From contig CACMTJ010000010.1 of the NCBI GenBank assembly GCA_902616595.1, forward strand, positions 1 through 41,001: DNA of 41,001 nucleotides. The letters are read 5' to 3'. This stretch comes from an uncultured Prochlorococcus sp. (GTDB lineage Bacteria; Cyanobacteriota; Cyanobacteriia; PCC-6307; Cyanobiaceae). The first letter of the stretch is position 1. Each line of letters begins with the position of its first letter. Both the position numbers and the translations under genes were made by a program. A model generated the notes under the pieces. The model was not told where the DNA came from. It did no database searches and saw only the letters and a program-made list of their open reading frames with translations. This document shows positions 3,204-30,732 of the stretch, one piece after another.

Positions 3204-3209
3204 TAGATA

Positions 3210-3217
3210 CTCCTCTC
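3210..3217 (-). promoter_or_regulatory. Strong ribosome binding site that fixes the GTG start
   Basis: On the minus strand the sequence GAGAGGAG sits six bases before the GTG at 3203. Such a strong anti-SD match is rare in this window and decides the start of the HAD-nucleotidyltransferase gene. Confidence 0.7.
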
Positions 3218-3324
3218 TAATAAAAATTTATAAATAAATTTATTTTGAAAAATGTACTCATAAAAATAATACTACATGTTAATTTAAATAGATACAAAAA
3301 GTATAAAATTTTAAAAATTAATCA

Positions 3325-3783
3325 ATGAAAATTATTGCGCATAGAGCCAATATAAATGGTCCAAGTAGTAAAAATGAAAATCAAAAATCTAGTATAAGAA
3401 ATTGCATAGATTTTGGCTACGATGTCGAAATTGATATAAGACTAATAGGTGGGAAATTGTATTTGGGACATAATAAACCTGAAGTTACAATAACAAAAGA
3501 TGAACTAATAATGATTAAAAATAAAGTTTGGGTTCATTGTAAAAACCTAGAGGCCTTGTCTTTTTTTAAGCAAATAGATGAAGGATTTAATTTTTTTTGG
3601 CATGAAAAAGATTCTTACACTCTTACAAGTAAAGGATATATTTGGGCATATCCAGGGAAACAACTATCTTCAGAATGTATATGCGTAATGCCAGAACTTA
3701 ATTGTCCTGTAAATAATATTAAAGACTTAATAAATTCATCTATTTCAGGCATTTGCACTGATTATCCAAATTTATTTGATTAA
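3325..3783 (+). CDS. Short glycerophosphodiester phosphodiesterase-like protein
   Basis: A 152-residue protein with the GDPD active-site pattern: His6-Arg7 near the N-terminus (IIAHRA), Glu35 and Asp37 in VEIDIR, and His49 in LYLGHN. Known GDPDs use equivalent His/Glu/Asp/His residues with a divalent metal to hydrolyse glycerol-phosphodiesters. At about 150 residues it is much shorter than the usual 230-260, so the TIM barrel is either compact or incomplete. It lacks a signal peptide, so it probably acts in the cytoplasm. It is divergent from the HAD-nucleotidyltransferase, which may act on a related phospho-polyol. The catalytic assignment follows from the motifs; the real substrate is not visible. 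Confidence 0.7.
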   Translation: MKIIAHRANINGPSSKNENQKSSIRNCIDFGYDVEIDIRLIGGKLYLGHNKPEVTITKDELIMIKNKVWVHCKNLEALSFFKQIDEGFNFFWHEKDSYTLTSKGYIWAYPGKQLSSECICVMPELNCPVNNIKDLINSSISGICTDYPNLFD

Positions 3784-3986
3784 AATTTTAAATTGATCTC
3801 TTTATTTTCAAAATAATATTCTTAATTTATAATTTTGGTGAAATAATAAAAATCAAACAATTTATAAGCTTTATAAAATTCATTTTTTAGACTATCGATA
3901 ATTTGTTTTCTAAAATAGTTTCAGATAAGTTCAAGAATTAAAAAAAAATTAATCAAAGGATTAGAATTAAATTAATAATTTATTAG

Positions 3987-4799
3987 ATGATTATTAACAA
4001 TATTCAAAATTCAATAATACAATTACTCCCTGCTTTAAAAACAAGGGAAATGATTGGTAGTTCTCAAGGTCTGATAGCTTGCATGCCTAAAACTGGAAGC
4101 ACTTTTCTAAAAAAAAAGTTATTTTGCCTTGAAAACGTAAAGTTAACAAGTTACCGCAAAAATTTTTATCGTTCAGAACAAGAATTAGAGGATGATCAAA
4201 TAAGGAAGGTTTATTTAAGAAATTTAAATTCAGATCTTATAGCTCAACATCATGTTAGATGTAACACTAATACTATTCAATTAATTAATAAATACAAAAT
4301 AAAAACAATTGTTCTAGTAAGGAACATTAAAGATATTCTTGTATCAATGGCTGATCATGTCGAAAATACTTCTCCAGTATGGCCAATGTACTATTTAGAT
4401 GACTTAATTTTAAAAGAAATAAAAAGCAAAAATATCTCTGTATTATCTGCCGTTACTGCTCTTTGTACTCCATGGTTGATTTCCTTTTATTTATCATGGA
4501 AAAAAGAATCTAAATTTATTAACAAAGGATTCGAACCTTATTTTGTTAATTATGAGCAATTATTTAGTAACAAAGTTGAATATATACAAAAAATAGCAAA
4601 TTTTTTAAATTTCAAAAATGATATCTCTACTATTGAGAAAGGACTAAAAAGAAATGATCATTTTACTAGATTTAATAAAGGTATTTCAGGAAGAGGTAAA
4701 GAGGAATTTGAGAAAGATAAAATGGCTAGTATTTATTTGGAAAATGTATTATTTTTTTATTCTAAAGACAACTATGAAGATATCAAAAATATAATTTAA
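3987..4799 (+). CDS. PAPS-dependent sulfotransferase family protein
   Basis: A 270-residue protein with both PAPS-binding signatures of the sulfotransferase fold: a 5'-phosphosulfate loop PKTGSTFLKK at residues 34-43, and a 3'-phosphate strand LVRNIKDILVSMADH at about 110-124, with Arg112 and Ser120 in the expected places. The C-terminal stretch 'RFNKGISGRGKEEF' matches the 'F-x-K-G-x-x-G' PAPS loop of this family. No membrane anchor is seen, so it is likely cytoplasmic. In this setting it would sulfate a sugar of the surface polysaccharide. There is a gap of about 200 bases on the 5' side and 140 on the 3' side, so it may be its own transcription unit. Confidence 0.85.
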   Translation: MIINNIQNSIIQLLPALKTREMIGSSQGLIACMPKTGSTFLKKKLFCLENVKLTSYRKNFYRSEQELEDDQIRKVYLRNLNSDLIAQHHVRCNTNTIQLINKYKIKTIVLVRNIKDILVSMADHVENTSPVWPMYYLDDLILKEIKSKNISVLSAVTALCTPWLISFYLSWKKESKFINKGFEPYFVNYEQLFSNKVEYIQKIANFLNFKNDISTIEKGLKRNDHFTRFNKGISGRGKEEFEKDKMASIYLENVLFFYSKDNYEDIKNII

Positions 4800-4904
4800 T
4801 ATTATAAAGTTTATTTATGTTATTCATTATTTCTTTTTTAAATTTAAAATTGTTTAACTGTCTAATTCTATGAAAAACCATAGTTAACAAATCTATAAAT
4901 TCCT

Positions 4905-4910
4905 TATAAC
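4905..4910 (+). promoter_or_regulatory. Candidate -10 box for the cytidylyltransferase operon
   Basis: TATAAC lies 29 bases before the ATG at 4940. No convincing -35 is visible. Weak, because such words are common in AT-rich DNA. Confidence 0.25.
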
Positions 4911-4939
4911 ATTTATTAATATATTATTAATAAAAAAAA

Positions 4940-5647
4940 ATGAATAAAAAAAAGGTACTATTCGTTGTTCCTGCCAGATCTGGTAGTAAGGGAATCAAAG
5001 ATAAGAATATTCAAATTTGTGGAAATGACACTTTATTGCGATTGAGCATTAATATCTGCAAAAGTGTTGAAATCGATTCACACATTTTTGTCTCTACAGA
5101 TAGTGAAAAATATATTCAACATGTTGCAGATTTAATTAATAACAAACATCTTTTAAGACCTAATTATTTATCTGGAGATCAAGTAGGAGATATTGAAGTC
5201 TTAACACATGCTTTACATGCTTGCGAAGCTTTATATCAGCAAGAATATTCTTGTATTGTAATGGTTCAGCCAACATCTCCATTAAGAAAAATTAAAAATA
5301 TCAATGATTGTATTGAGGCTGTATTGAAAAATGGCTTTTCATCTGCACTTACTGCTCATAAAGTTGATTTAAAGTATCATCCACTTAAATCGCTTAAGCT
5401 TTGCGAAGATAATCTTGTAGAACCTTACTTAAGTGATTCTTCAAAAATAATTAGTAGGCAGCAATTGGATAGTACTTATATAAGGAATGGAGCCTGTTAT
5501 GCTATTAAACCAGATCATTTATGTTTAAAAAAATCATTTTTTAAAGGTAAAACTAAATTAATAGAAACTGAAGAAATGATAAGTATTGATTCACAATATG
5601 AACTAGATTATTGTTCGAAATTATTAAAAAATAAAAATCAAATTTAA
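4940..5647 (+). CDS. Acylneuraminate (nonulosonate) cytidylyltransferase-like
   Basis: A 235-residue cytoplasmic enzyme of the NeuA/PseF/LegF family, which joins CMP to a nonulosonic acid. The N-terminal CTP loop is PARSGSKGIKDKN, followed by FVSTDSEKY, LRPNYLSGD, VQPTSPLR and late SRQQLDSTYIRNGACYAI. All of these are standard for the family, and the length is normal for a single-domain synthetase. It heads a same-strand run with an oxidoreductase, a NeuB-type synthase and a HAD phosphatase, which supports CMP-activation of the sugar acid they make. Kdo-type KdsB is less likely, since the RRQ-like SRQQ and NGA motifs fit NeuA better. The exact nonulosonate is not predictable. Confidence 0.85.
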   Translation: MNKKKVLFVVPARSGSKGIKDKNIQICGNDTLLRLSINICKSVEIDSHIFVSTDSEKYIQHVADLINNKHLLRPNYLSGDQVGDIEVLTHALHACEALYQQEYSCIVMVQPTSPLRKIKNINDCIEAVLKNGFSSALTAHKVDLKYHPLKSLKLCEDNLVEPYLSDSSKIISRQQLDSTYIRNGACYAIKPDHLCLKKSFFKGKTKLIETEEMISIDSQYELDYCSKLLKNKNQI

Positions 5648-5678
5648 ATTAAAAATTTATTAAGTTGATTACTTAGGT

Positions 5679-5684
5679 TATAGT
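5679..5684 (+). promoter_or_regulatory. Candidate -10 box before the oxidoreductase gene
   Basis: TATAGT lies 20 bases upstream of the ATG at 5704, in a 56-base spacer. Weak evidence. It could give an internal start in the nonulosonate operon. Confidence 0.2.
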
Positions 5685-5703
5685 AAAAAGTAAAATCATT
5701 TAT

Positions 5704-6744
5704 ATGAAAGCTAGAGTATTTGGTGCTGGGTCAATTGGTAATCATATTACATATGCCTTAAAAAGTATTAAATATGATGTAGAGGTTGTTGATGTCGATG
5801 ATGCCGCTCTATTAAGAATGAAGAGTCAGATTTATCCATCAAGGTATAAAAAATGGGATGAATCTATAAATTTATTATCAAAACCTAGTAAAGATTTTGT
5901 TGATTTAGAGATTATAGGAACCCCCCCAGATACCCATGCTGAAATCCTCTTAGAAGGAATAAAGGCCAATAGAGCTAGAGCATGGCTTGTAGAAAAGCCA
6001 TTTACTTATCCAGATATCAAACATATAAATGATTTGAAGAATCATTTAAAAGGTTTTGAGGACAGAGTTTATGTTGGTTATAATCACTCTGTTGCACCTG
6101 CTTTTTTAGATCTTTTAAAAGAATTAAAAAATAAAAAGAATATTACAAAAATTTATTGTAATTGGCTTGAACATTGGGGTGGTATTTTTAAAGCTCATCC
6201 TTGGTTAAGTGGTCCAGAAGATTCTTATTTGGGATTTTCAAAAAGAGGAGGGGGCTCGTTAATGGAGCATAGTCATGGCTTTCACATGCTCCTTATTGTA
6301 ATGAATCAACTTGACTTGAAAATTAATAAAACTAATTTCTGTATAAATCAAGACTTGAGTAATACTTATGATAAGTATGTAAATATTGTTTTTACTCTAG
6401 AGAATGGTTCGGAAAATTTAATTGCTACCTATACAACAGATGTATTAACAAAAGATGTATCAAAGAAAATTGTTGTAGAGACTGACAAGGAATTATTTTC
6501 GGTTGAATTTGGGGCGAATAATGGAAGCTGTGACGTTTTTCAAAAGAAAACTGAAAATCAAGATTCATATAAAATTTACAAAAAAACCAGACCTGATGAT
6601 TTTAAATATGAAGTAGCTGTGCTTGATGATATTCTAAATGGAGGATCTCCTGAATTTAAAGAAAATCTTTCATGTTTATGGGGTTTAGAGGTTTCTAATT
6701 TATGCTCACAAATACTTACAAATAATATAAATTATGGAAAATAA
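5704..6744 (+). CDS. Gfo/Idh/MocA family NAD(P)-dependent oxidoreductase
   Basis: A 346-residue two-domain dehydrogenase. The N-terminal Rossmann fold opens with VFGAGSIGNH (residues 5-14) and ends with the diagnostic VEKPF, which carries the substrate-contacting Lys. The C-terminal alpha/beta domain has the GGGSLMEHSHGFHML region that supplies the catalytic His. These enzymes oxidise or reduce a hydroxyl or keto group on a sugar or sugar acid. The 3' end overlaps the NeuB-cupin gene by 11 bases, which implies translational coupling and a shared pathway. A tract of seven C residues (5921-5927) encodes part of the cofactor-domain TPPDTH motif. Confidence 0.88.
   Translation: MKARVFGAGSIGNHITYALKSIKYDVEVVDVDDAALLRMKSQIYPSRYKKWDESINLLSKPSKDFVDLEIIGTPPDTHAEILLEGIKANRARAWLVEKPFTYPDIKHINDLKNHLKGFEDRVYVGYNHSVAPAFLDLLKELKNKKNITKIYCNWLEHWGGIFKAHPWLSGPEDSYLGFSKRGGGSLMEHSHGFHMLLIVMNQLDLKINKTNFCINQDLSNTYDKYVNIVFTLENGSENLIATYTTDVLTKDVSKKIVVETDKELFSVEFGANNGSCDVFQKKTENQDSYKIYKKTRPDDFKYEVAVLDDILNGGSPEFKENLSCLWGLEVSNLCSQILTNNINYGK
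5921..5927. repeat. C7 homopolymer inside the oxidoreductase gene
   Basis: Seven consecutive C residues encode Thr-Pro-Pro in the Rossmann domain. GC homopolymers of this length are conspicuous in such AT-rich DNA and are possible slippage sites. Confidence 0.6.
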
Positions 6745-8281
6745 ATATATAGAAACTGAACAAGACTATTTTAAAAAAATAATTGTACTAGACATCGCAA
6801 ATAATCATTTTGGTAATTTATCTCATGGGAAAGAAATAATAAATGTTTTTTCAAAATTAAAATATCCTAAAGGTTATAAAGTTTATTTTAAATTGCAGTT
6901 TAGGAACTTAGATACTTTCATTCATATAGAAGCACCTAAAGATTCGCATTACATCAAGAGATTCAACTCAACAAAATTAACAAAAAATCAAATATTAGAA
7001 TTATCGAATTCAATAAAAGAAATTGACAATCAACTCTTCGGACTTATGGTTACTCCATTTGATGAAGACTCTGTATCATGGGCTGAGGAGGCAGGTACAG
7101 ATCTATTAAAAGTTGCCTCATGTTCAGCTAATGATTGGCCTCTTCTTACCAGGATTTCACAATCAAATATTTCAGTAGTTGCTTCAACCGGCGGTTTAAA
7201 AGTAAGTGATATTGATAATTTAGTGAGCTTTTTAAGACATAAAGGCACCAATTTTTCTTTGATGCATTGCATTTCAGTATACCCAACGAAACCTGAAGAT
7301 TGTAATATTTCATTTATAAATGAACTAAAAAAAAGATATCCTGACCTTTCCATTGGTTGGTCTACGCATGAGCCTCCAGAAAATAATGATATTGTAATAG
7401 CAGCTCTTTCAGTAGGAGCTGAATTGCTAGAGAGACATATATGTTTGCCTAAGGTTGATATGCCTCAAAATGCTTATTCAAGTGATCCAGATCAATTACA
7501 AAGCTGGCTAAATAAAATTGAATTAGCTAATAATCTTTTAGATTCTTCAAGTATTTTATGTAGAAAAGAAGAAAAAGATTCAATAAAATTACTAGCTCGA
7601 GGTGCTTATGCAAAGAGAGAAATTAAAAAAGGAGAAATTTTAGATACAAATGATTTTTACTACGCTTTCCCAATATTACAAAAAGGCCAGCATACAGCAT
7701 CAACAATAAAAATTGGGTCCAAAGTTTTAAAGAATATTAAAAAAGATTATGCTCTTATAGAAAACGATAATGTAGAGTCTCCTCCAATAAATTCAAGATT
7801 TTATTTAAAAGAAAGCCTACATGAAGTTAAAGCCTTACTCTCTAAAGCTTCAATTAAATTGAATTCTACTTTTACTTTGGAGTTGTCTCATCACAAAGGA
7901 AGAAAAAATTTTAAAAAAATTGGAACCACAATAATTAATTGTATTAATAGAGAATATTGTAAGAAGATTCTTGTACAACTACCCAATCAATTTCATCCAC
8001 TACATTATCATCCAAGGAAAGAAGAAACTTTTCAAATATTAAATGGTTCTTTAGATGTTATTTCTGATGGACATAAATATTGTTTAGATCCAGGTCAAAC
8101 TCTTACAGTACTCCCTGGGGTTTGGCATTCATTTTCTTCAAAACAAGGATGTGTTTTCGAGGAGGTATCTACAACGCACTTTAATGAAGATAGTGTTTAC
8201 AAAGATCACTCTATTCAGAAATTATCAAGAAATGAGAGAAAAACCATAGTTGATCATTGGGGAAGATTTCAAATGGATTAA
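6734..8281 (+). CDS. NeuB-family sugar acid synthase fused to SAF and cupin domains
   Basis: A 515-residue, three-domain protein. Residues about 10-280 form the NeuB TIM barrel that condenses phosphoenolpyruvate with an acylamino sugar. The family motifs LMHCISVYPTKPED (about 175), IGWSTHEPP and ELLERHI carry the two metal-binding histidines. Residues about 286-346 form a SAF/antifreeze-like domain (LARGAYAKREIKKGE, ILQKGQHT). Residues about 410-500 are a cupin with metal ligands in HPLHYHPRKEE and a later LPGVWHSF. Ordinary NeuB proteins end after the SAF domain at about 345 residues, so the cupin is an extra module, possibly a sugar isomerase or sensor. It overlaps the upstream gene by 11 bases and the next gene by one base. 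Confidence 0.88.
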   Translation: MENKYIETEQDYFKKIIVLDIANNHFGNLSHGKEIINVFSKLKYPKGYKVYFKLQFRNLDTFIHIEAPKDSHYIKRFNSTKLTKNQILELSNSIKEIDNQLFGLMVTPFDEDSVSWAEEAGTDLLKVASCSANDWPLLTRISQSNISVVASTGGLKVSDIDNLVSFLRHKGTNFSLMHCISVYPTKPEDCNISFINELKKRYPDLSIGWSTHEPPENNDIVIAALSVGAELLERHICLPKVDMPQNAYSSDPDQLQSWLNKIELANNLLDSSSILCRKEEKDSIKLLARGAYAKREIKKGEILDTNDFYYAFPILQKGQHTASTIKIGSKVLKNIKKDYALIENDNVESPPINSRFYLKESLHEVKALLSKASIKLNSTFTLELSHHKGRKNFKKIGTTIINCINREYCKKILVQLPNQFHPLHYHPRKEETFQILNGSLDVISDGHKYCLDPGQTLTVLPGVWHSFSSKQGCVFEEVSTTHFNEDSVYKDHSIQKLSRNERKTIVDHWGRFQMD

Positions 8282-8913
8282 TGATTAGATTACTTATCCT
8301 AGATTTTGATGGAACAATTATTCAATCTAATTACATAAAACAAATTTCAATTAACCATTTTGCAAAGTTTGAGTTTGGATATTCTGTCGCCGATAAAGTA
8401 AATAAACAGCAGATAAAGAATTTAACAAGATACCAGCAATTGTGCCGAGTAAAAGGTGCTCCTTTAACAATTAAAGAGAATCTAAAAATAGATCAATATG
8501 TTAATGAACAAGTTTTAAAAGCAAATATGGATAGCAATTTCTATTTACTAGTTAGGATTTGTAGGATAAGGAAAATTAAAGTTTTTCTTGTTTCAAATAC
8601 ACCTGATCATTCCCTAAATTATTTAACAAAAAAACTCAATATTGATTATCTATTTGATGGTATTTTTGGTAAGCGGAATAATCAAAAAAAAAGTAGTGTT
8701 TTTTGGGAAATTCTTCAGTCGATGAGTATAAAACCTCAACAATGTTTAAGTGTAGGCGATGATTATTGTGATTATTTAGCTTCAAAGGATTGTAATATAC
8801 CATTCATAGGAATTAGGCACGAATCTTTAAGCAACTTATCTGAAAATATAAAAAAAGTTGCAAATCTAAGGGGCATAATAAATTTTTTAGAAAAAAATGA
8901 TTTAAAAAAATAA
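8281..8913 (+). CDS. HAD-superfamily phosphatase
   Basis: A 210-residue HAD hydrolase: DFDGTI with Asp8 and Asp10, motif II Ser105 in LVSNTPDH, basic residues NNQKKSS as motif III, and GDDYCD at about 159-164 as motif IV. I start it at the ATG at 8281, which overlaps the upstream TAA as TAATG. An in-frame ATG at 8257 would only add eight residues inside the preceding gene. Directly after a NeuB-type synthase, the natural role is removal of phosphate from a nonulosonate-9-phosphate, as in Neu5Ac-9-phosphate phosphatase. That role is inferred from order and is not visible in motifs. No HAD cap resembling GmhB is obvious. Confidence 0.82.
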   Translation: MIRLLILDFDGTIIQSNYIKQISINHFAKFEFGYSVADKVNKQQIKNLTRYQQLCRVKGAPLTIKENLKIDQYVNEQVLKANMDSNFYLLVRICRIRKIKVFLVSNTPDHSLNYLTKKLNIDYLFDGIFGKRNNQKKSSVFWEILQSMSIKPQQCLSVGDDYCDYLASKDCNIPFIGIRHESLSNLSENIKKVANLRGIINFLEKNDLKK

Positions 8914-8920
8914 TTACACA

Positions 8921-9931
8921 ATGATAGAATCCTGTAATATGAAAAATTTAACAAAATTTTGGTCTGAAGAAAATCAAATTAATTTACCAGTTAATGCTGA
9001 GGAGAATTTACTTGGATTTTTAAGTCCAACTGCCCCAGGAAGTAATTACTGGGATAGTCCAAATGAAGTTTTAGATAAATTAACTGAAAGGGAGTACAAA
9101 AGAATAATTGGTCAAGCAATAGAAATTAAAAATATTATTAGTCCTGATAATCAATTTACTGAAAAAAAGAGTCTGCTCGATGTTGGTACAGGTAATGGAC
9201 TTGTTCCAAAATTATTAGGTTATATTTTACCCTCCTTGGATTGTGTTGGTATAGATCCATTCCTTCATGGAGGTCATAAGACTAGTTGGCAAAAAAGTAA
9301 TTTAGAGAAAGATATTGAGTTAATTATTAAATTGTATAATGATAATTATGGATTTTCCAAAATAGATAAGTTTTCTGAAAAAGCAAAGTATAGAGAATAC
9401 AAATTGTTTTTAAAAGAATATATAGAACAAAAAAATTTTACTAAGTCAGACTTTGTTTATTGTAAAGCAATAGAGCATGTACCAGATTGGAAAAGTTTTG
9501 CTAAGGAATTGGCATATACCGTTAAAGAGAATGGAAAATTAATAATCAAACATAGATCTTTTTATTCTTATTTAGGACCTCACAGATATGCTACATCTTC
9601 AATTCCATGGGGACATTGTATTTTAAATGATAAAGAATATTCTCAGTATATAGATTACTTTCATAAAGAAAGAGCTGAAGAAATGAAAAATTTTTTCTTT
9701 AATAATCTTTCTAATCCTAGAATGACTACTTTAGAACTGATTGAGATCCTCCGAGAAGAAGGAATGATTTTATCCAGTATTTTATACTCAAGGCCTAAGT
9801 ACTATAAAAAACAAGAAGATGTTTTCAGAATTTATCCTGAGCTTGTAGATATTGCTCTGAAGAAAAATAAAAATTTATCTTATGAAGAATTAACTTCAGG
9901 TCTAATAATATATGAATTTGAAAAAAATTGA
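8921..9931 (+). CDS. Class I SAM-dependent methyltransferase
   Basis: A 336-residue protein. Motif I is SLLDVGTGNGLVPKLLG near residue 84, the acidic strand 2 end is GIDPF, and the post-motif KAIEHVPDW is typical of Methyltransf_11/12. The N-terminal 80 residues, rich in Asn and Ser, are unassigned. The start may be 8921 or the ATG at 8939, and neither has a good SD. It lies seven bases after the HAD phosphatase in the same operon, so it may methylate the nonulosonate-type sugar or its glycan. The substrate cannot be read from the sequence. Confidence 0.82.
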   Translation: MIESCNMKNLTKFWSEENQINLPVNAEENLLGFLSPTAPGSNYWDSPNEVLDKLTEREYKRIIGQAIEIKNIISPDNQFTEKKSLLDVGTGNGLVPKLLGYILPSLDCVGIDPFLHGGHKTSWQKSNLEKDIELIIKLYNDNYGFSKIDKFSEKAKYREYKLFLKEYIEQKNFTKSDFVYCKAIEHVPDWKSFAKELAYTVKENGKLIIKHRSFYSYLGPHRYATSSIPWGHCILNDKEYSQYIDYFHKERAEEMKNFFFNNLSNPRMTTLELIEILREEGMILSSILYSRPKYYKKQEDVFRIYPELVDIALKKNKNLSYEELTSGLIIYEFEKN

Positions 9932-10035
9932 TTATTAAATCAGTTTTCAGATTTAAATATTAAAATTACAATTGAAAATTTTTAAATAATCATAGATTTT
10001 ATTATGTAAATAGATTCTTTGATATAAAAAATTCA

Positions 10036-10320
10036 TTAATTTATAAGTAATATTCCACTTATTTTTTTTCCTAGAAGGCGTAATTTATTTTTTAAGCTTA
10101 CTAAATTCTTTTGTATTTCAGGAGTAGTTGATGTTATGAATATAACCATGTCACCTTCTTCAATATTTAAAGAATTTTCTTTACTTAAAAAGGAATTTTT
10201 AGTAACTAATTCCTTTTCAATCGTCTCAAGAGTTTTTTTATCTAGAGATAGATAAATAAAAAGTACATTAGTTAATTTACTCTTCCAGTAACAAATATAT
10301 TTATAAATCTTGGACTTAAA
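10036..10320 (-). pseudogene. Fragment resembling the C-terminus of a Wzc/BY-kinase
   Basis: A frame without a good start reads on the minus strand for about 90 codons to TAA at 10036-10038. It includes LSLDKKTLETIEKEL, then GDMVIFITSTTPEIQKNL and LRLLGKKISGILLIN. The order (Asp strand, 'VIFIT-S-T' strand, helix, 'L-G-K-K-I-S-G-I-L-L-I-N' end) matches the C-terminal strands of bacterial tyrosine kinases of the Wzc/CpsD type, where 'G-V-V-L-N' closes the P-loop domain. No Walker A motif is present. It overlaps the end of the wza remnant in another frame, so the junction is probably a deletion scar. The family call is tentative. Confidence 0.35.
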
Positions 10321-11111
10321 TTAGATTTTATTGCACTTCCTATTAACGCATTATTAGGTTCATTTAGTCTTTCTATTTTAATAATATCCCCATCATAAAT
10401 TCTAATATTTTGGGGAGATGAATAATTTTTGTTATGTCATCTATATTTAAAGTTGTAATTTTTTTGCCCCCTCCATTTGAAATAGAATTTTTTCTTATTA
10501 ACTTAATTTCCTTGATATTTGAGTATTGATTAATTCCTCCTGCTACTCTTATCGCATCGAAGAGTTTTGGGAAGTAATAGATAACTTTAGATTCTGATTC
10601 AACAAATCCTAAAGATGGTGTCGATGAGTTTTGGGATGAATCGATTCTAGAAAAACTACCCACTAAAATTTGTATCCCAGGATTATTTACAGCTCCATCT
10701 ACTAAAACTTTAAATATCTCTATGCTTAAGAATTGAAGATTCAACTTCAGGATATCTTATGTAACTTAAAAACTCCTCATTAAGGATATTATTCATTTCT
10801 TCTTGGGTTAAACCTTTTACATAAACTCTTTTTATTAATGGTAAGTTTATCTTGCCTTCTCCATCAATAGTAACAGTAGTAGTAAGTTCAGGGTAATCTC
10901 TTGAAATTATTATTTCCATAACATCTCCAGAATCAATTATGTATTCATCATCTGGGAAGTTTCTAAGATATTCTTTTGTTAATTTGAAATTAGTTTTATT
11001 AATTTCTTGTTCTTTTGAATAAACTTCACTTTGAGAAATTGGTTGAATATTAAATCCAACCATTAATGCTAAGGCAGTCACTATCTTTATTACACTATAT
11101 TGAAATTTCAA
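10272..11111 (-). pseudogene. Frameshifted Wza-type polysaccharide export protein
   Basis: Three successive minus-strand frames together make a Wza/SLBB outer-membrane export protein. The first (11111-10710) has a signal-peptide-like N-terminus, then YIIDSGDVMEIIISRDYPEL and INLPLIKRVYVKGLTQEE. A one-base excess in an A run at 10712-10714 shifts it to a second frame with KVLVDGAVNNPG and FDAIRVAGGINQYSNIKEI, which is a clear SLBB domain. A second shift near 10415 restores IRIYDGDIIKIERLNEPNN and SPRFINIFVTGRVN before a stop at 10272-10274. Two shifts plus a premature stop make it a pseudogene; sequencing error could explain one but hardly all. In life Wza forms the outer-membrane pore for polysaccharide export. 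Confidence 0.8.
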
Positions 11112-13946: not shown

Positions 13947-14960
13947 ATGAAGAAATTAGAAAAAGTTCTCATAACTGGTGGTACAGGAAGTTTTGGTAGA
14001 GCTTTGATAAAAGATATAGTTGCTTCAGTTCCAAATTTAAAAAGATTAGTTATATATAGCAGGGATGAATTAAAGCAATGGGAACTAAAGCAAATATATC
14101 CTGAAGATAAATTCCCTCAATTACGTTTTTTTATTGGTGATATTAGGGATCAAGATCGTCTAAATATGGCTTTTCACAATATTGACACAGTCATACATGC
14201 AGCAGCTCTTAAACAAGTGCCCGCTGCAGAATATAATCCAATGGAATACATTAAAACAAATGTTTTAGGTGCAGAAAATTTGGTAAAAGCTTGTTTAGAG
14301 TGTAATATAAAAGACCTAATTGCTTTAAGCACAGATAAAGCTTGTTCTCCTATAAATTTGTATGGAGCCACAAAGCTATGTTCGGATAAACTTTTTATAG
14401 CAGCAAACAATATTAAGGGAGATAGAGACTTAAAGTTCTCTATTGTTAGATATGGGAACGTTTTGGGGTCTAGAGGCTCAGTAATACCTTTTTTTCTTAA
14501 AAAAGCAAAAGAGGGAGTGATACCCATAACAGAAAAAAATATGACAAGGTTTAATATTCTTCTTGAAGATGCGGTAAAGATGGTTAAATGGGCACTAATA
14601 AATGCTCTTGGAGGAGAAATATTTGTACCAAAATTAAAAAGCTATAGAATTATGGACATAGCAGAAGCAATTGCCCCCAGTTGTAAAAAAGAATTCATAG
14701 GAATGAGACCAGGTGAAAAAGTGCATGAAAAAATGATTAGCCAAGCAGATAGTCAATCAACTATTTCTTTAGGAGATTATTATGCAATACTCCCACCTGA
14801 TGGGGATTTGGAGAATTTATATAAAAAGTTAAATATAAACTTTACTAAAGTAGATCAAGGTTTTTCTTATTCATCTAATAACAATAATTCTTTCTTAAAT
14901 GTTGAAGATATAAGGAAGTTAATTATAGAAAATTTAGATTCAAATTTTGTTCCTATTTAA
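13947..14960 (+). CDS. pseB: UDP-GlcNAc 4,6-dehydratase (5-inverting)
   Basis: A 337-residue extended SDR of the PseB/FlaA1 type. TGGTGSFGRAL binds NADP, YSRDELKQWE is a family hallmark, and LSTDKA (Asp130, Lys131) with YGATK (Tyr139, Lys143) forms the catalytic set. MTRF and GMRPGEKVHE complete the signature. The known reaction converts UDP-GlcNAc to UDP-2-acetamido-2,6-dideoxy-beta-L-arabino-hexos-4-ulose. It is followed nine bases later by pseC, whose aminotransferase uses this product. The length is standard and I see no damage. FlaA1-like membrane domains are absent, so it is a soluble cytoplasmic enzyme. Confidence 0.92.
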   Translation: MKKLEKVLITGGTGSFGRALIKDIVASVPNLKRLVIYSRDELKQWELKQIYPEDKFPQLRFFIGDIRDQDRLNMAFHNIDTVIHAAALKQVPAAEYNPMEYIKTNVLGAENLVKACLECNIKDLIALSTDKACSPINLYGATKLCSDKLFIAANNIKGDRDLKFSIVRYGNVLGSRGSVIPFFLKKAKEGVIPITEKNMTRFNILLEDAVKMVKWALINALGGEIFVPKLKSYRIMDIAEAIAPSCKKEFIGMRPGEKVHEKMISQADSQSTISLGDYYAILPPDGDLENLYKKLNINFTKVDQGFSYSSNNNNSFLNVEDIRKLIIENLDSNFVPI

Positions 14961-14969
14961 TTATTACCC

Positions 14970-16139
14970 ATGGAAAATAAGTTTATCCCTTACGGTAAGC
15001 AAGAAATTACTGATGATGATATTGAGTCAGTAGTAAAAGTTTTAAAAAGCGACTTTCTTACCCAAGGAGAAAAAGTTCCGGAATTTGAGAAGTTAATATG
15101 TGAGACTTTTAATGTAGCGTATGCAACAGCAGTTAATAGTGCTACAAGCGCTCTTCATTTAGCTTGTCTTGCATTAGGTCTTCAAAAAGGAGATATATTA
15201 TGGACTTCAACAATCACTTTTGTGGCTTCTGCAAATTGCGCAAGATATTGTGGTGCAGATGTGGACTTTGTTGATATTGATGAAAAAACGGGTCTCATTT
15301 CAATAGAAAAACTTAAATATAAATTAGAAAAGGCTAAACAAATTGATAAATTACCTAAAGTTCTAATTCCCGTTCATTTAGGAGGAAGTAGTTGTGATAT
15401 GAGATCCATCAAAGAATTATCGAAAAAATATAATTTTAAAATAATAGAAGATGCAAGTCACGCAATAGGGGGTAGTTTTCATAGTAATTTGATTGGGAAT
15501 TGTAAGTTTAGTGATATTACAATTTTCAGCTTTCATCCGGTTAAGATAATTACCTCTGGTGAAGGAGGCATGGCAACTACAAATAATAAAGATATTGATG
15601 AACAAATAAAAATGTTAAGAACTCATGGTATTACAAAAGAAAAAGAAAAATTTAAATTTCCAATTGCAGGTCTCTGGTCTTACGAGCAACAGATGCTTGG
15701 CTTTAATTTTAGGATGACAGATATACAAGCAAGTCTTGTGATAAGTCAATTAAAAAGATTAAAAGAAAATGTTAAAAGACGAAATTTAATTTTGCAATTT
15801 TATAAAAAAAATATGGTTGATCTAAAAATTGATTTCTTACACATTCCTAAAGAGAATTACTCTGCATGTCATTTGGCGATAATTAAATTAAATAACTGTT
15901 CTGAGGAATTTCATAAGCAATTTTTTAGAAATATGCGTTTAAGAGGAATTGGTGTTCAATTACATTATTCTCCTGTGCATCTTCAACCCTACTACAGACA
16001 ATATGGATTTAAGGATGGAGATTTTCCTTCCGCTGAAAAATATGCTAAGTCTGCTCTATCTATTCCACTTTTCCCAAATCTTAAAGAAGAAGAACAGATC
16101 AGAGTAATTGAGACTATAAAAACTGAGATTATTAAATAG
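14970..16139 (+). CDS. pseC: UDP-4-amino-4,6-dideoxy-N-acetyl-beta-L-altrosamine transaminase
   Basis: A 389-residue DegT/DnrJ/EryC1 PLP-dependent aminotransferase. The opening FIPYGKQEITDDDIESV and LTQGEKVPEFE are characteristic of PseC. NSATSALHLA binds PLP phosphate, EDASHAIG has the PLP-N1 Asp161, and SFHPVKIITSGEGG has the Schiff-base Lys192. In characterised systems it transfers an amino group from glutamate to C4 of the PseB product. It is tightly spaced after pseB and three bases before an aldo/keto reductase. No PseH, PseG or PseI is adjacent, so whether the route goes on to pseudaminic acid is open. Confidence 0.92.
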   Translation: MENKFIPYGKQEITDDDIESVVKVLKSDFLTQGEKVPEFEKLICETFNVAYATAVNSATSALHLACLALGLQKGDILWTSTITFVASANCARYCGADVDFVDIDEKTGLISIEKLKYKLEKAKQIDKLPKVLIPVHLGGSSCDMRSIKELSKKYNFKIIEDASHAIGGSFHSNLIGNCKFSDITIFSFHPVKIITSGEGGMATTNNKDIDEQIKMLRTHGITKEKEKFKFPIAGLWSYEQQMLGFNFRMTDIQASLVISQLKRLKENVKRRNLILQFYKKNMVDLKIDFLHIPKENYSACHLAIIKLNNCSEEFHKQFFRNMRLRGIGVQLHYSPVHLQPYYRQYGFKDGDFPSAEKYAKSALSIPLFPNLKEEEQIRVIETIKTEIIK

Positions 16140-25843: not shown

Positions 25844-27661
25844 TTATTTCTTTAAAAACAATTCATTATAATTTTCAGGATAAATTATTCTTTTAATATG
25901 GCCACTTTCAAAATGAATAATATAGTCACACATTGATAAGGTTCTTAGTCTGTGAGCAACCATAAATATAGTTATGTCTTCATATTCTTTTTGAATTGAA
26001 GATATAACTTTCTTCTCAGTTTTATTATCAAGAGAGCTAGTTACTTCGTCGAGTATTAAGACACTTGGATTTTTATATATAGCTCTAGCTATAGAGATTC
26101 TTTGTTTTTGACCTTGGCTTAGAAATACTCCATCCTCTCCTATTTCAGTATCATATTTTTTTGGGAGATAATTTATAAATTCTGCTGCACATGAAATTTC
26201 TGCAGCTTTTATTATTTTTCTTAATTTTATATTGTTTGCCTCTTCTGAAAAAATAATATTATCTGCAATTGAGCCATTTAATAAAAAGATTTTCTGGGGA
26301 ACATAAGATATACCTTTCCTCCAACGCATTAAATTATCAATATTTTTATTATCAAAGATTTCTTTATTGTCGATTAAAATTTTCCCACTTGAAGGCTTTA
26401 ATAATCCAAGAATCATATTTATAAATGTTGTTTTACCAGAACCTGTTTGACCTATGATGCCAACTTTATCTCCTTTTTTTATAGAAATATTTAAATTAGA
26501 AAGAGTATTTTTTGTATTATTTTTATACTTGAAAAAAGTGTTATTAAAACTAATCTCTTTTCTGAAATTGAATTTTATATCTTTTTTATTGTTTGATTTC
26601 CATTTTTCATTCTCATCTATCAAAGAAAGAAAACTTAATGCTGCTGCAGATTGCGATTTTAAAATTGATAAGCCTGCATATATTTGTTGAAATAATGGCA
26701 GAATTTTCTGTGCAGATAAAGCAAAAATAGCAATTACTGTTATTAACTTGTAGGGATCCTCATTCAATAATGTGAAAACAAGAGAAATACTTGCTAACAA
26801 GCAGAAACTTATTGTTTCAAGTAAATATTTTGGTAATACAGAGAGAAATTTAACTTCAGAATTTATAAATCTAGTTTCGAATTCTAATTTTTTAAATTTT
26901 TTAACTTTAAGTTTTTGGGATTGTGAAATGATTATTTCTATAATAGATCCCAAACTTTCCTTTATTATTTGTATTTGTTTTACACTATTTTTAGAGACAA
27001 TTCTTCCGCTTCTATAAAGTTTTTTCTGGATAGTTTTTATCAATAAAGAGTAAATAGTTACAAAAATAGATATTGTTATTATTGAAACAAGTGGGCTTGC
27101 AATTATCATTGTAACTATTATGAAAAGTGAAGAAATAATTGCCGTAGAGATTTTAAATGTAGTACTTAGTGATGTTACAAATGAATTAAGATGTATTGTA
27201 TTGCCTGTTATGAACTTGCTTGAGTCAATATTAATAATTTCTTGGTAATTTTTATTTAGTGTGGAATTAAAAGCTCTAATACTAAACTCTGCACCAATAG
27301 ATGCAGCTAATCTTTCAAAGATCCAAATTCCCAAAAGTCTAATCATAGTAGAAAGGATATTAGCCACTGTAAAAAGTAATATAGAAGGTATGAATAACTG
27401 AATAGGAGAGTAAATTCCAAAAAAGTTAGCAATTTCTTTGACTATAGAAATATTCCAAATTTTTTCAGGATTAGAGACTATCGATAGTAGAGGAATTAGA
27501 GCAGCAAGGGAAAACATTTCTCCAAAACCGCTTATAATATAAAATATGGAAACTATAAAAATTTGTTTTTTCTTTTTTGGTTCTAAGTAAAAATATACTT
27601 TTTTGTAAAGCTTAAATAAAAAATTAAAACCATTGTTATTAGCATCATTCTCTTTTAACAT
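25844..27661 (-). CDS. ABC transporter, fused permease and ATPase (MsbA/PglK-like flippase)
   Basis: A 605-residue half-transporter. Hydrophobic helices occupy about residues 33-330 (type IV exporter fold). The ATPase follows, with Walker A GQTGSGKT at 404-411, Q-loop YVPQ near 455, signature LSQGQKQR at 514, Walker B VLILDE at 534 and the H-loop His570. The length and the cytoplasmic coupling resemble MsbA and PglK, which flip lipid A or lipid-linked oligosaccharide across the inner membrane. Within a polysaccharide island, lipid-linked glycan flipping is more likely than drug export. It works as a homodimer and is convergent with rfbG, with a 322-base spacer at its 5' side. Confidence 0.88.
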   Translation of the reverse strand: MLKENDANNNGFNFLFKLYKKVYFYLEPKKKKQIFIVSIFYIISGFGEMFSLAALIPLLSIVSNPEKIWNISIVKEIANFFGIYSPIQLFIPSILLFTVANILSTMIRLLGIWIFERLAASIGAEFSIRAFNSTLNKNYQEIINIDSSKFITGNTIHLNSFVTSLSTTFKISTAIISSLFIIVTMIIASPLVSIITISIFVTIYSLLIKTIQKKLYRSGRIVSKNSVKQIQIIKESLGSIIEIIISQSQKLKVKKFKKLEFETRFINSEVKFLSVLPKYLLETISFCLLASISLVFTLLNEDPYKLITVIAIFALSAQKILPLFQQIYAGLSILKSQSAAALSFLSLIDENEKWKSNNKKDIKFNFRKEISFNNTFFKYKNNTKNTLSNLNISIKKGDKVGIIGQTGSGKTTFINMILGLLKPSSGKILIDNKEIFDNKNIDNLMRWRKGISYVPQKIFLLNGSIADNIIFSEEANNIKLRKIIKAAEISCAAEFINYLPKKYDTEIGEDGVFLSQGQKQRISIARAIYKNPSVLILDEVTSSLDNKTEKKVISSIQKEYEDITIFMVAHRLRTLSMCDYIIHFESGHIKRIIYPENYNELFLKK

Positions 27662-27983: not shown

Positions 27984-28607
27984 ATGATTTCAATAGTTGA
28001 TTTGGGATTGTCTAATCTTGGTTCACTCATATCTTCATTATCTAAAATTAATGTAGAAACTAAGGTAGTTTCTAAACCAGAGGAATTAAAAAAAGCTAAA
28101 GCAATTATACTTCCTGGCGTTGGAGCTTTTGTAGATGGAATGAGATCTCTAAAAAATCAAAATCTTATAAATACTTTAAAGAATCAGGTAAATAAAGGCG
28201 TCCCGATTCTAGGTATTTGCTTGGGTATGCAACTACTATCAGAAAATTCGGAAGAATTTGGAATTTGTGAAGGACTGGGTCTTATAAAAGGGAATGTGAT
28301 GAAACTCCCAGATGTAAAAAATTTGAGAATACCTAATATGGGCTGGTGTGACTTGTTTAATAATTTCGAGTCAGAAATAACGCGAAATATAAATGATGAG
28401 GATTCATTTTATTTTGTTCATTCATATCATTTGGTATGTAGAGATAAATCCTCACAATCATCTTATATCAATTTTGGAAGTCATAAAATTACTGCAATTG
28501 TTGAAAAAAATAATATATTTGGAGTTCAGTTTCATCCAGAAAAAAGCCATGATAAAGGATTAAAAATTTTGTCAAACTTTGCGGAAATTTCTAAGGTAGT
28601 AAGATAG
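27984..28607 (+). CDS. hisH: HisH-like glutamine amidotransferase for sugar amidation
   Basis: A 207-residue class I glutaminase. It has the full triad: Cys79 in GICLGMQLL, His184 and Glu186 in VQFHPEKS. IVDLGLSNLGSL, ILPGVGAF and IPNMGW are the HisH hallmarks. In histidine synthesis it feeds ammonia to HisF. Here it stands directly before a HisF-WbpG fusion in a sugar island, the arrangement of the hisH2-hisF2-wbpG set of Pseudomonas O-antigen clusters. It therefore most likely supplies ammonia for amidination of an N-acetyl sugar. The housekeeping hisH is expected elsewhere. There are forty bases to the chosen start of the fusion gene. Confidence 0.9.
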   Translation: MISIVDLGLSNLGSLISSLSKINVETKVVSKPEELKKAKAIILPGVGAFVDGMRSLKNQNLINTLKNQVNKGVPILGICLGMQLLSENSEEFGICEGLGLIKGNVMKLPDVKNLRIPNMGWCDLFNNFESEITRNINDEDSFYFVHSYHLVCRDKSSQSSYINFGSHKITAIVEKNNIFGVQFHPEKSHDKGLKILSNFAEISKVVR

Positions 28608-28647
28608 TTAATATGAAATTTGAAATTTGAGGATTTTGGAATCTGCA

Positions 28648-30732
28648 ATGAATACGTTAAAAATTAGTGGCCCAAGACCGAGATTAATCCCTTTATTGCT
28701 AATAAAGGATGGATTGATTGTTCGAAGCCAGCTATTTGAGTTTCATCAATTAATTGGGAATCCTGTTAGTACTGTTGAAAGGTATTCACATTGGAACGTC
28801 GATGAATTAGTTGTGCTCGATATAAGCAAAAGTGATAATAAGCATGATCTTAGAAGAGATGACCTTCAGCAATCATATGAAGGTAATAATATTTTAGATG
28901 TTCTCAAAGAAATTTCTAAAGTTTGCTACATGCCTCTTACTTTTGGAGGAAAAATTAAAACTTTGGATGATATTGAAAAGCGTTTAATTGCTGGAGCAGA
29001 TAAAGTTGTAATTAATTCATCTGCCTATAAAAACAAAGATCTTATTACTGAGGCTGCTAAAAAATTTGGGAGCCAATGTATCGTGGCTGGTATTGATGCC
29101 AAATTTATAAATGCAGGAAATTGGAATGTTTTTATTGATGGAGGCAAATTTAATACAAAAATGTCTCCTGATTTCTGGGCGCAAGAATTACAAGAAAGAG
29201 GTGCTGGTGAAATTTTTCTTAATTCTATAGATAGAGATGGATCCGCATTAGGTTATGATATTGAATTAATAAAAAAGGTTTCTGAGTCTATTAATATCCC
29301 GGTAGTGGCAGCTGGTGGAGCAGGTGAATATTCAGATATTATTCCAGTTATAAATATTGCTAAAGCTTCTGGGGTTGCGATTGGTAATTTACTTCATTTT
29401 TACGAAGTCTCATATTTGAAGGCTAAAAATGTAGCCTTGGAAAATGGAATCCCTATGCGTCCGCCCTCATTTGAATCGGAATATATAAAAAGAGAACCTA
29501 ATTATGATCGTAATAATGAAAACGTAAAATTAGAAAGAAGGATAACAAACTCAAAAGATAAATCATATTTTGTCAAAAAGTATTCTAAAAATAATTCACC
29601 TTCAAAAGTTAAATGGTGTGTGAAATGTACATATCCGTCAATGTCAGCTGCTCCAATGGAGTTTGACGATAAAGGTGTATGTACTGGATGTCAAATGTCT
29701 ATGATTAAGGATTCCTTTAAAGAAGATTCATCATGGGATAGAAAAAAAGAAACGTTAAGAAAATTAGTTGATAAATATAAATCTCATGATAATTCAAGGC
29801 ATGATGTTGTAGTTGCTGTTTCGGGAGGTAAGGATTCTTATTTTCAAGTACACTTTTTGAAGGAAGAACTTGGATTAAATCCCTTACTAGTTACATATGA
29901 TGGAAATAATTGGACAGATATAGGTTGGCAAAACTTATTGAATATGAAAGATGCATTTTCTGTGGATCATGTAATAATCAGACCTTCTACATCCACATTG
30001 ATCAAATTGAATAAATTAGCTTTTTATATTATGGGTGATATGAATTGGCATGCGCATGTTGGTATTATGACTGTTCCAATGAAAGAAGCTACGATTAGAA
30101 ATATACCATTGGTGTTTTATGGAGAACATGGTTATTTAGATCTATGCGGACAATTTTCACTTGATGACTATCCAGAAGTAACCTATCGAGATAGATTAGA
30201 ACATTTTGCGAGGGGCTTTGAATGGAATTATTTCGTAGGTAGAGATAATTTAACTGAAAAAGATATGAATATTTGGAAATATCCTAGTGATAAAGATATT
30301 CTTAAGTTGGATTTGAGAGGCATCTTTCTTGGGAATTATGTTCATTGGGAAGCTAATGAACATATAAAATTAGTAACAGAAAAATATGGCTTCCGAATTA
30401 ATGATCAACCATTTGAAAGGACTTATAGGAGAATGTCAAATCTTGATGATATGCATGAAAATGGAATTCATGATTATCTAAAATATATAAAATTTGGATA
30501 TGGCAGAGCAACTGATCATACTAGTAAAGATATAAGAGCTGGATTAATGTCAAGGGAAGAAGCAATAAAATTAGTCAATCATCATGATCCAATTAAATCA
30601 AGTGATTTAAAAAGATGGTTGAACTATGTAGATATTGATGAAGAAGAATTCGATAGAATTGCCGATACTTTTAGAGATCCAAGAGTATGGGAGTATGAAA
30701 ATGAAAAATGGTTTAAAAAAAATATTGTTTAA
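28648..30732 (+). CDS. HisF-WbpG fusion: N-acetyl sugar amidotransferase with its own ammonia channel
   Basis: This gene encodes 694 residues if started at the ATG at 28648; a TTG at 28627 would add seven. Residues about 10-260 are a HisF barrel (RLIPLLLIKDG, GADKVVINSSAY, GIDAK, GAGEIFLNSIDRDG). The residues equivalent to T. maritima HisF gate Arg5, Glu46, Lys99 and Glu167 are all kept (Arg12, Glu53, Lys119, Glu188), and Asp130 is kept (Asp150). The catalytic Asp11 is Leu18. After a charged linker, residues about 320-694 form WbpG/PseA-type amidotransferase: WCVKC and GVCTGC (possible zinc site), then a PP-loop SGGKDS at 392-397. Known WbpG proteins use ATP and ammonia to turn an N-acetyl into an acetamidino group. 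These are normally separate genes. Confidence 0.9.
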   Translation: MNTLKISGPRPRLIPLLLIKDGLIVRSQLFEFHQLIGNPVSTVERYSHWNVDELVVLDISKSDNKHDLRRDDLQQSYEGNNILDVLKEISKVCYMPLTFGGKIKTLDDIEKRLIAGADKVVINSSAYKNKDLITEAAKKFGSQCIVAGIDAKFINAGNWNVFIDGGKFNTKMSPDFWAQELQERGAGEIFLNSIDRDGSALGYDIELIKKVSESINIPVVAAGGAGEYSDIIPVINIAKASGVAIGNLLHFYEVSYLKAKNVALENGIPMRPPSFESEYIKREPNYDRNNENVKLERRITNSKDKSYFVKKYSKNNSPSKVKWCVKCTYPSMSAAPMEFDDKGVCTGCQMSMIKDSFKEDSSWDRKKETLRKLVDKYKSHDNSRHDVVVAVSGGKDSYFQVHFLKEELGLNPLLVTYDGNNWTDIGWQNLLNMKDAFSVDHVIIRPSTSTLIKLNKLAFYIMGDMNWHAHVGIMTVPMKEATIRNIPLVFYGEHGYLDLCGQFSLDDYPEVTYRDRLEHFARGFEWNYFVGRDNLTEKDMNIWKYPSDKDILKLDLRGIFLGNYVHWEANEHIKLVTEKYGFRINDQPFERTYRRMSNLDDMHENGIHDYLKYIKFGYGRATDHTSKDIRAGLMSREEAIKLVNHHDPIKSSDLKRWLNYVDIDEEEFDRIADTFRDPRVWEYENEKWFKKNIV

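Follow-up and report, generated by a model that had tools for sequence, protein, structure and literature searches.

A HisF2-WbpG fusion beside HisH in an uncultured Prochlorococcus: a probable two-gene sugar amidotransferase with a barrel as ammonia conduit

The stretch of DNA analysed here, 41,001 nucleotides long and hereafter called the window (contig CACMTJ010000010.1 of assembly GCA_902616595.1, positions 1 to 41,001), comes from an uncultured Prochlorococcus sp. whose genome assembly amounts to 1.29 Mb (39 contigs, 82% completeness). It carries a hisH-like gene followed by a single gene that joins a HisF-type barrel of the HisF2 family to a WbuX/WbpG-type PP-loop enzyme, a domain also known as N-acetyl sugar amidotransferase (NASAT). 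We propose that the two genes probably encode a glutamine-dependent N-acetyl-sugar amidotransferase in which the barrel acts as a conduit for ammonia between HisH and the PP-loop enzyme. The features of the pair are as follows; residues of the fusion are numbered from the ATG at 28648 unless its TTG start is stated, and HisF sites follow the reference HisF-LUCA.

27984..28607, + strand: hisH-like class I glutamine amidotransferase, 207 amino acids, predicted ammonia source (TIGR01855, Cys-His-Glu triad)
28648..30732, + strand: hisF2-wbpG fusion gene, 694 amino acids from the ATG (open reading frame (ORF), domain matches, AlphaFold2 model)
28681..29463, + strand: HisF-type (beta/alpha)8 barrel, residues 12-272 (PF00977, structure alignment)
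28699..28701, + strand: Leu18 codon, where HisF has the catalytic Asp11 (alignments)
28843..28863, + strand: HDLRRDD, residues 66-72, a motif within an enlarged beta2-alpha2 loop
29464..29613, + strand: linker between the two domains, residues 273-322, in which a conserved REPxYD precedes a predicted helix
29614..30729, + strand: WbuX/WbpG (NASAT) domain, residues 323-694, with tetracysteine C324, C327, C345 and C348
29821..29838, + strand: PP-loop SGGKDS, residues 392-397, invariant in 36 rows

HisH scores 221.1 bits under TIGR01855 (cut-off 105.4), and its Cys-His-Glu triad is complete in 34 of 34 HisH rows, the window's own among them. For the fusion, a TTG at 28627 is an alternative start that would give 701 amino acids, and no inner stop is met from either start. 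Its barrel matches PF00977 (His_biosynth, Pfam) at 1.2e-52 over residues 19-261 in TTG numbering. Among the HisF-like models the WbuZ model TIGR03572 scores highest, and the barrel lies below the cut-offs of this model (244.0 against 299.7), of the AglZ/HisF2 model NF038364 (214.5 against 310) and of the HisF model TIGR00735 (208.2 bits against 294.55). The C-terminal domain exceeds the cut-off of the TIGR03573 WbuX model (NCBIfam; 292.0 bits against 203.2, residues 329-679 in TTG numbering) and carries both marks of that family, the PP-loop and the tetracysteine CXXC...CXXC, whose cysteines are invariant in 36 rows. Passages of PMC10607449 describe a PP-loop SGGXDS and a tetracysteine as motifs of the NASAT family and give the family a role in acetamidino formation; a term search of that source found no mention of HisF, HisH, glutamine or a fusion. 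By these matches, the domain is predicted to be an N-acetyl sugar amidotransferase that makes an acetamidino sugar.

The first-pass annotation, made from the letters of the window, had described this layout, and both genes lie on the plus strand at the positions it gave, with a single reading frame and no stop between the two fused domains. The same domain order was sought in other genomes. A WbpG-domain query of a species-level genome collection returned 142 relatives, and our counts use the best 80, ranked by similarity to the fused query; HisF-WbpG fusions make up 35 of these 80 loci, a share that overstates their frequency among all relatives because the ranking favours likeness to that query. 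Further fusions were found in genomes G136, G237 and G459. A misassembly, a chance joining or a missed stop is excluded by these other copies of the fusion. The annotation had added that the modules are usually three genes elsewhere; this holds for most relatives, but the fused form is a widespread lineage of its own. The fusion is a real variant of a known system, with two genes in place of three, and no new kind of system.

The residue comparison covered 114 HisF2 rows, 38 of them fused and 76 split, together with 22 canonical HisF rows; L002, which was taken for HisA, was left out. Alignment of the window barrel with HisF-LUCA by phmmer and MAFFT pairs Arg5 with R12, Cys9 with L16, Asp11 with L18, Glu46 with E53, Lys99 with K119, Asp130 with D150 and Glu167 with E188. 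The earlier claims that the barrel has Leu in place of Asp11, and that it keeps Asp130 together with Arg5, Glu46, Lys99 and Glu167, are borne out, and neither alignment restores an Asp at site 11. The last four residues we take, from that annotation and from general knowledge of HisF, to be the ammonia gate. Asp11 is given as the general acid and Asp130 as the general base of HisF in a passage of PMC11350729. From what is known of HisF, the change of Asp11 to Leu suggests that the window barrel has lost cyclase activity. Asp11 and Asp130 occur together in 0 of the 114 fused or split rows (site 11 is gapped in 10 rows). The 37 fused rows with a letter at site 11 have Leu in 36 cases and Phe in one; among split HisF2 rows with a letter there, Asp11 is missing in 57 of 67, and the remaining 10 have Asp11 but no Asp130. 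These split rows led us to reject the fusion as the cause of the Asp11 loss; the loss of the acid-base pair runs through the sampled HisF2 (WbuZ/AglZ) family. The first-pass annotation had treated the missing Asp11 as a mark of a conduit barrel: the substitution is real, but it is typical of the whole sampled family and not specific to the fusion. The gate, by comparison, is complete (Arg/Glu/Lys/Glu) in 37/37 fused, 62/64 split and 22/22 canonical rows, the other two split rows having Arg for Lys99; this count leaves out L069, which lacks its N-terminus, and 12 of the 76 split rows gapped at gate sites. Conservation of the pore gate, while the cyclase pair is not conserved, supports a conduit role.

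We regard it as highly improbable that the barrel has a cyclase or isomerase activity, whether retained or newly acquired. Site 11 is Leu or Phe in every fused row with a letter, Thr171 is altered in 38/38 fused rows, and the same genome encodes a separate HisF (contig C15, L001) with both Asp11 and Asp130, so that histidine synthesis should not depend on the fusion. An activity of its own would fit the retention of Asp130, Asp176 and several further pocket residues, as well as a fold that aligns with HisF structures such as 1gpw and 1thf at Z 32-36 (VIA-align 2).

The AlphaFold2 model of the window fusion has a mean predicted local distance difference test score (pLDDT) of 86.4 and a predicted template modelling score (pTM) of 0.87. 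Its C-terminal domain superposes on the Legionella N-acetyl sugar amidotransferase 8wex_A (Z 38.0, 2.5 A, 350 residues, 29% identity), with which it shares fold, tetracysteine and PP-loop; the Legionella enzyme is a separate protein, whereas in the window the domain forms the C-terminal portion of a fused chain. In the Leptolyngbya locus L067, hisH shares its reading frame with the fusion, a stop standing between the two genes, and we modelled the two as a single 912-residue chain by reading through the stop (pLDDT 89.3, pTM 0.91; joint at residues 206-223 disordered). HisH and barrel of this model align with the yeast imidazole glycerol phosphate (IGP) synthase 1ox5_B over 446 residues at 2.5 A and Z 41.1, and the model aligns with 1jvn_A over 451 residues at 2.6 A (both VIA-align 2). 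The same yeast entries come top in Foldseek, with about 555-562 columns, a root-mean-square deviation of 5.4-5.7 and a template-modelling score by target of 0.73-0.76. In this modelled HisH complex, HisH is predicted to sit on the gate face of the barrel, as in IGP synthase. The likeness to IGP synthase (HisHF; yeast His7, 1jvn/1ox5) thus lies in this predicted docking and in the conserved gate. In contrast, the fusion barrel has lost Asp11 and carries an extra PP-loop acceptor domain behind it, and the yeast chain links HisH to HisF, whereas the window fusion links HisF to the acceptor enzyme.

In the mechanism that we propose, HisH would hydrolyse glutamine to release ammonia, which would enter the HisF-type barrel through the retained gate, cross it and exit at the C-terminal mouth. 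There the fused WbuX/WbpG PP-loop domain, with adenosine triphosphate, would replace the acetamido oxygen of a sugar by NH to yield an acetamidino sugar. The WbpG domain would sit at the barrel mouth since, in the model, HisH occupies one face and further conserved loops lie on the other. Mean column identity among the fused barrels is 0.86 in the HisH-face (alpha-beta) loops, 0.80 in the strands, 0.75 in the catalytic-face (beta-alpha) loops and 0.64 in the helices. From HisF site 46 to site 66 the 38 fused rows span 33-34 residues and the 22 canonical HisF rows 21, and D67, R70 and D72 of the HDLRRDD motif are invariant in 36 rows. The barrel would then be a conduit, perhaps also a regulator of HisH, and no longer an IGP synthase.

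Alternatively, the barrel may be mainly a regulator, its C-terminal phosphate/nucleotide pocket keeping HisH off until the sugar enzyme is loaded, with channelling secondary. Conserved residues in the catalytic-face loops, HDLRRDD included, would fit such a role, and the HisF phosphate-site positions are conserved in the fused rows (Asn103 in 35/38; Asp176, Gly177 and Gly203 each in 38/38), which leaves room for ligand sensing. However, the pore gate is conserved equally strictly, at position 82 Gly has given way to Arg in 31 of the 38 fused rows, and regulation is compatible with channelling, as IGP synthase does both. We consider a mainly regulatory barrel unlikely.

Still less probable, in our estimate, is a barrel that acts as a scaffold only, with WbpG taking up free ammonia whose local level is raised by HisH-HisF. 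Such an arrangement would not explain why the gate and both end faces are so strictly conserved, and the predicted docking of HisH resembles that of IGP synthase. Its attraction is that the HisH/HisF pair is reportedly dispensable in some three-gene systems. Mutant data also bear on this: according to passages of PMC11340318, a transposon screen of Sphingomonas LM7 for altered colonies gave 12 insertions in wbuX, 10 in hisF2 and 9 in hisH, so that all three genes were struck in one screen, polarity being possible. This result agrees with a joint action of the three genes.

Several points weigh against a barrel that channels ammonia to the fused enzyme. The docking of HisH is not independent evidence, because AlphaFold2 was trained on IGP synthase structures, and the Foldseek superposition on the yeast enzyme is looser than the VIA-align 2 alignment. 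A pure conduit would not require the conserved phosphate-site residues Asn103, Asp176, Gly177 and Gly203. The continuity of a tunnel to the PP-loop and the placement of WbpG are features that we infer. WbpG/WbuX-type enzymes may run on free ammonia without a HisH/HisF pair. Finally, the Sphingomonas insertions lie in adjacent genes, where polar effects are possible, and they do not concern a fusion.

The three-gene HisH/HisF2/WbpG systems (WbuYZX, AglXYZ and PseA-type, names given partly from general knowledge) have the same three modules as the fusion system. Like it, they have a HisF2 without the Asp11-Asp130 pair and with the gate kept in nearly all, a WbuX above the TIGR03573 cut-off and, in many of the split HisF2 relatives, an enlarged DLRRDD-type loop after strand beta2. 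Both hisF2 and wbpG were located in 42 split loci, and 39 of these have the gene order hisH-hisF2-wbpG, mostly with short gaps. Unlike them, the window has hisF2 and wbpG as one gene and a barrel below the WbuZ and AglZ/HisF2 cut-offs. That a HisH/HisF2 pair feeds ammonia to WbpG in the three-gene systems is an existing proposal, and the role of HisH/HisF in acetamidino-sugar synthesis has so far rested on gene neighbourhood and mutants. The occurrence of the fusion in several phyla provides direct genomic evidence that barrel and sugar enzyme act as a unit. It also offers a two-polypeptide system for testing ammonia channelling through a barrel without the cyclase acid-base pair, and the fused barrel may be a TIM barrel turned from enzyme into conduit. 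Among the titles and starts of abstracts listed from the open-access literature, with subscription journals mostly missing and protein databases such as nr or InterPro outside the search, we found no description of a HisF-WbpG fusion. Parts of an archaeal fusion survey mention HisHF and HisA/F-HisIE (PMC11237513), and separate hisF/hisH genes and WbpG are mentioned in passages of PMC3694923 and PMC13329287.

By record titles, the 35 fused loci come from eight phyla in all: Pseudomonadota (17), Myxococcota (4), Thermodesulfobacteriota (4), Cyanobacteriota (3), Actinomycetota (3), Verrucomicrobiota (1), Planctomycetota (1) and Fidelibacterota (1), with one unplaced Deltaproteobacterium. Many are metagenome bins, and two different bins (L074 and L099) share one identical fused protein, both being counted; named carriers are Leptolyngbya sp. 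PCC 6406, Rhabdaerophilum calidifontis SYSU G02060, Desulfovibrio sp. A2 and Acidovorax delafieldii DSM 64. HisH is encoded at most about 0.9 kb away in 34/35 loci (33 upstream and one, L089, downstream of the fusion), and the only one without a nearby HisH, L069, begins inside the fusion. Closer to the window, 2 of 386 genomes sampled from its own phylum, G000 and G237, match over the entire fused length. A sample of 200 genomes of the genus has the full fusion in G000 and G136, the latter 48% identical over residues 9-692, and 300 genomes of the family add G237 and G459. Four candidates for further fusions were rejected because they have no HisF part: L149, L150 and L151 (ORFs of 611-657 amino acids, WbuX below cut-off) and L053 (594 amino acids). 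One and the same WbpG-domain row occurs in L063 (G480), from a genome of the window's family, and in Synechococcus sp. AG-683-C23 (L131).

An origin of the fusion on phages or plasmids was considered and set aside, as no fused copy was found in viral, phage or plasmid collections. The viral contigs gave no relatives of the WbpG domain, and 14 phage records matched, the best place of each covering the HisF part only. Plasmid records matched in 96 cases; among the 30 listed, seven cover at least 80% of the query, each in two pieces, and the six of these annotated there have separate genes in every case.

In fast trees, built without bootstrap and with long branches among the split rows, the 38 fused rows (the 35 loci, the window, G136 and G237, without G459) are set apart from all other rows by a single branch of the WbpG-domain tree of 126 rows (Shimodaira-Hasegawa-like approximate likelihood ratio test (SH-aLRT) 100). 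The same holds for the HisF-domain tree of 130 rows (SH-aLRT 99), where the 22 canonical HisF rows occupy a separate supported branch (99). L007 represents the window, its copies L003 and L064 being left out, and the HisF tree leaves out seven short HisF rows, L002 among them. The fused rows thus appear as one clade in the tree of either domain, which is compatible with, although no proof of, a single origin. Probably the fusion arose once, from an operon hisH-hisF2-wbpG, and may then have spread by transfer. In the fusions, 36-56 residues separate the two domain matches; the REPxYD part of this linker is conserved, and the model gives a helix at 288-302. No counterpart of the linker was seen in the split relatives compared. 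It looks new to the fusion, because split HisF2 mostly stops right past its last helix and split WbpG mostly starts at most about 25 residues from its first cysteine.

The distance between the two forms is small, as G775 of the same phylum shows. Its hisF2 and wbpG (L157, 1462-3480, minus strand) lie in one frame, a few codons and two TAA stops being all that separates them, and we counted it as unfused for these stops. Nine other loci (L037, L039, L040, L041, L042, L043, L045, L047 and L065) have a different fusion, HisF2 then HisH in one ORF that runs past the locus end, with a separate WbuX gene adjacent; HisF site 130 is Gln in 9/9 of them and Asp11 is kept in 7/9. The genome of the window also has a second, split set (L147, G000:C24, 1411-5730) of hisH, hisF2, wbpG and an asparagine-synthase-like gene, and the end of that contig carries a NeuB-like gene.

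The surroundings of the fusion bear on the acceptor sugar, and two genes of the window score above the cut-offs of models for the pseudaminic acid route.

13947..14960, + strand: pseB homologue, UDP-GlcNAc 4,6-dehydratase (inverting) (TIGR03589, 470.9 bits, cut-off 407.75)
14970..16139, + strand: pseC homologue, aminotransferase of the pseudaminic acid route (TIGR03588, 522.5 bits, cut-off 423.5)

NeuB-like and cytidylyltransferase genes, with scores under their cut-offs, lie 20-24 kb upstream of the fusion. In G136 the fusion adjoins PseB and PseC-like genes, and further out lie a cytidylyltransferase and a NeuB-like gene; G237 likewise has PseB and PseC-like genes close to its fusion. Because PseB and PseC homologues occur in the window and around the fusions of G136 and G237, a pseudaminic-type sugar is favoured and is probably the acceptor in this genome. 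Our confidence in the substrate is lower than in the conduit mechanism, since the window's PseB and PseC homologues are 12-14 kb upstream of the fusion and few fused loci have a match to its NeuB (4/35, compared with 27/45 split loci) or PseB (5/35 other fused loci). The NeuB-like protein at 6734-8281 has a D-lyxose-isomerase-like match near its C-terminus (PF07385, 37.2 bits, cut-off 20.8) and is perhaps a two-domain protein.

A different neighbourhood is found at L067, where positions 2032-10721 hold a DUF4910 gene, hisH, hisF-wbpG, three methyltransferase genes (MT1 to MT3) and an asparagine-synthase-like gene (AsnB). With the L067 genes as queries, and with several loci ending early at contig ends, matches in the 35 fused and 45 split loci number 16 and 1 for DUF4910, 23 and 18 for MT1, 16 and 3 for MT2, 15 and 0 for MT3, and 17 and 4 for AsnB. 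All five queries are matched in 10/35 fused loci, from six phyla by title (L067, L068, L071, L072, L074, L080, L081, L082, L086 and L099). None of these cassette genes was found in the window, L008 or L060, nor in the longer stretches L152 and L153 round the fusions of G136 and G237. More speculatively, and with confidence on the doubtful side, the fusion clade could represent a distinct amidotransferase machine, its barrel a dedicated ammonia pipe covalently bound to the acceptor enzyme, which in several phyla would stand within a conserved DUF4910-HisH-fusion-methyltransferases-AsnB cassette whose product would be a so far undescribed glycan or metabolite that bears an amidine and is possibly methylated. 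The DUF4910 protein of the cassette is kin to PDB 3k9t, annotated as a 'putative peptidase'. Beside hisH in the window, a PglK-like ABC transporter is encoded at 25844-27661 on the minus strand (NF050066, 275.1 bits, under the cut-off); a PglK-like match also follows the fusion in 5/35 fused loci and is present in 1/45 split loci.

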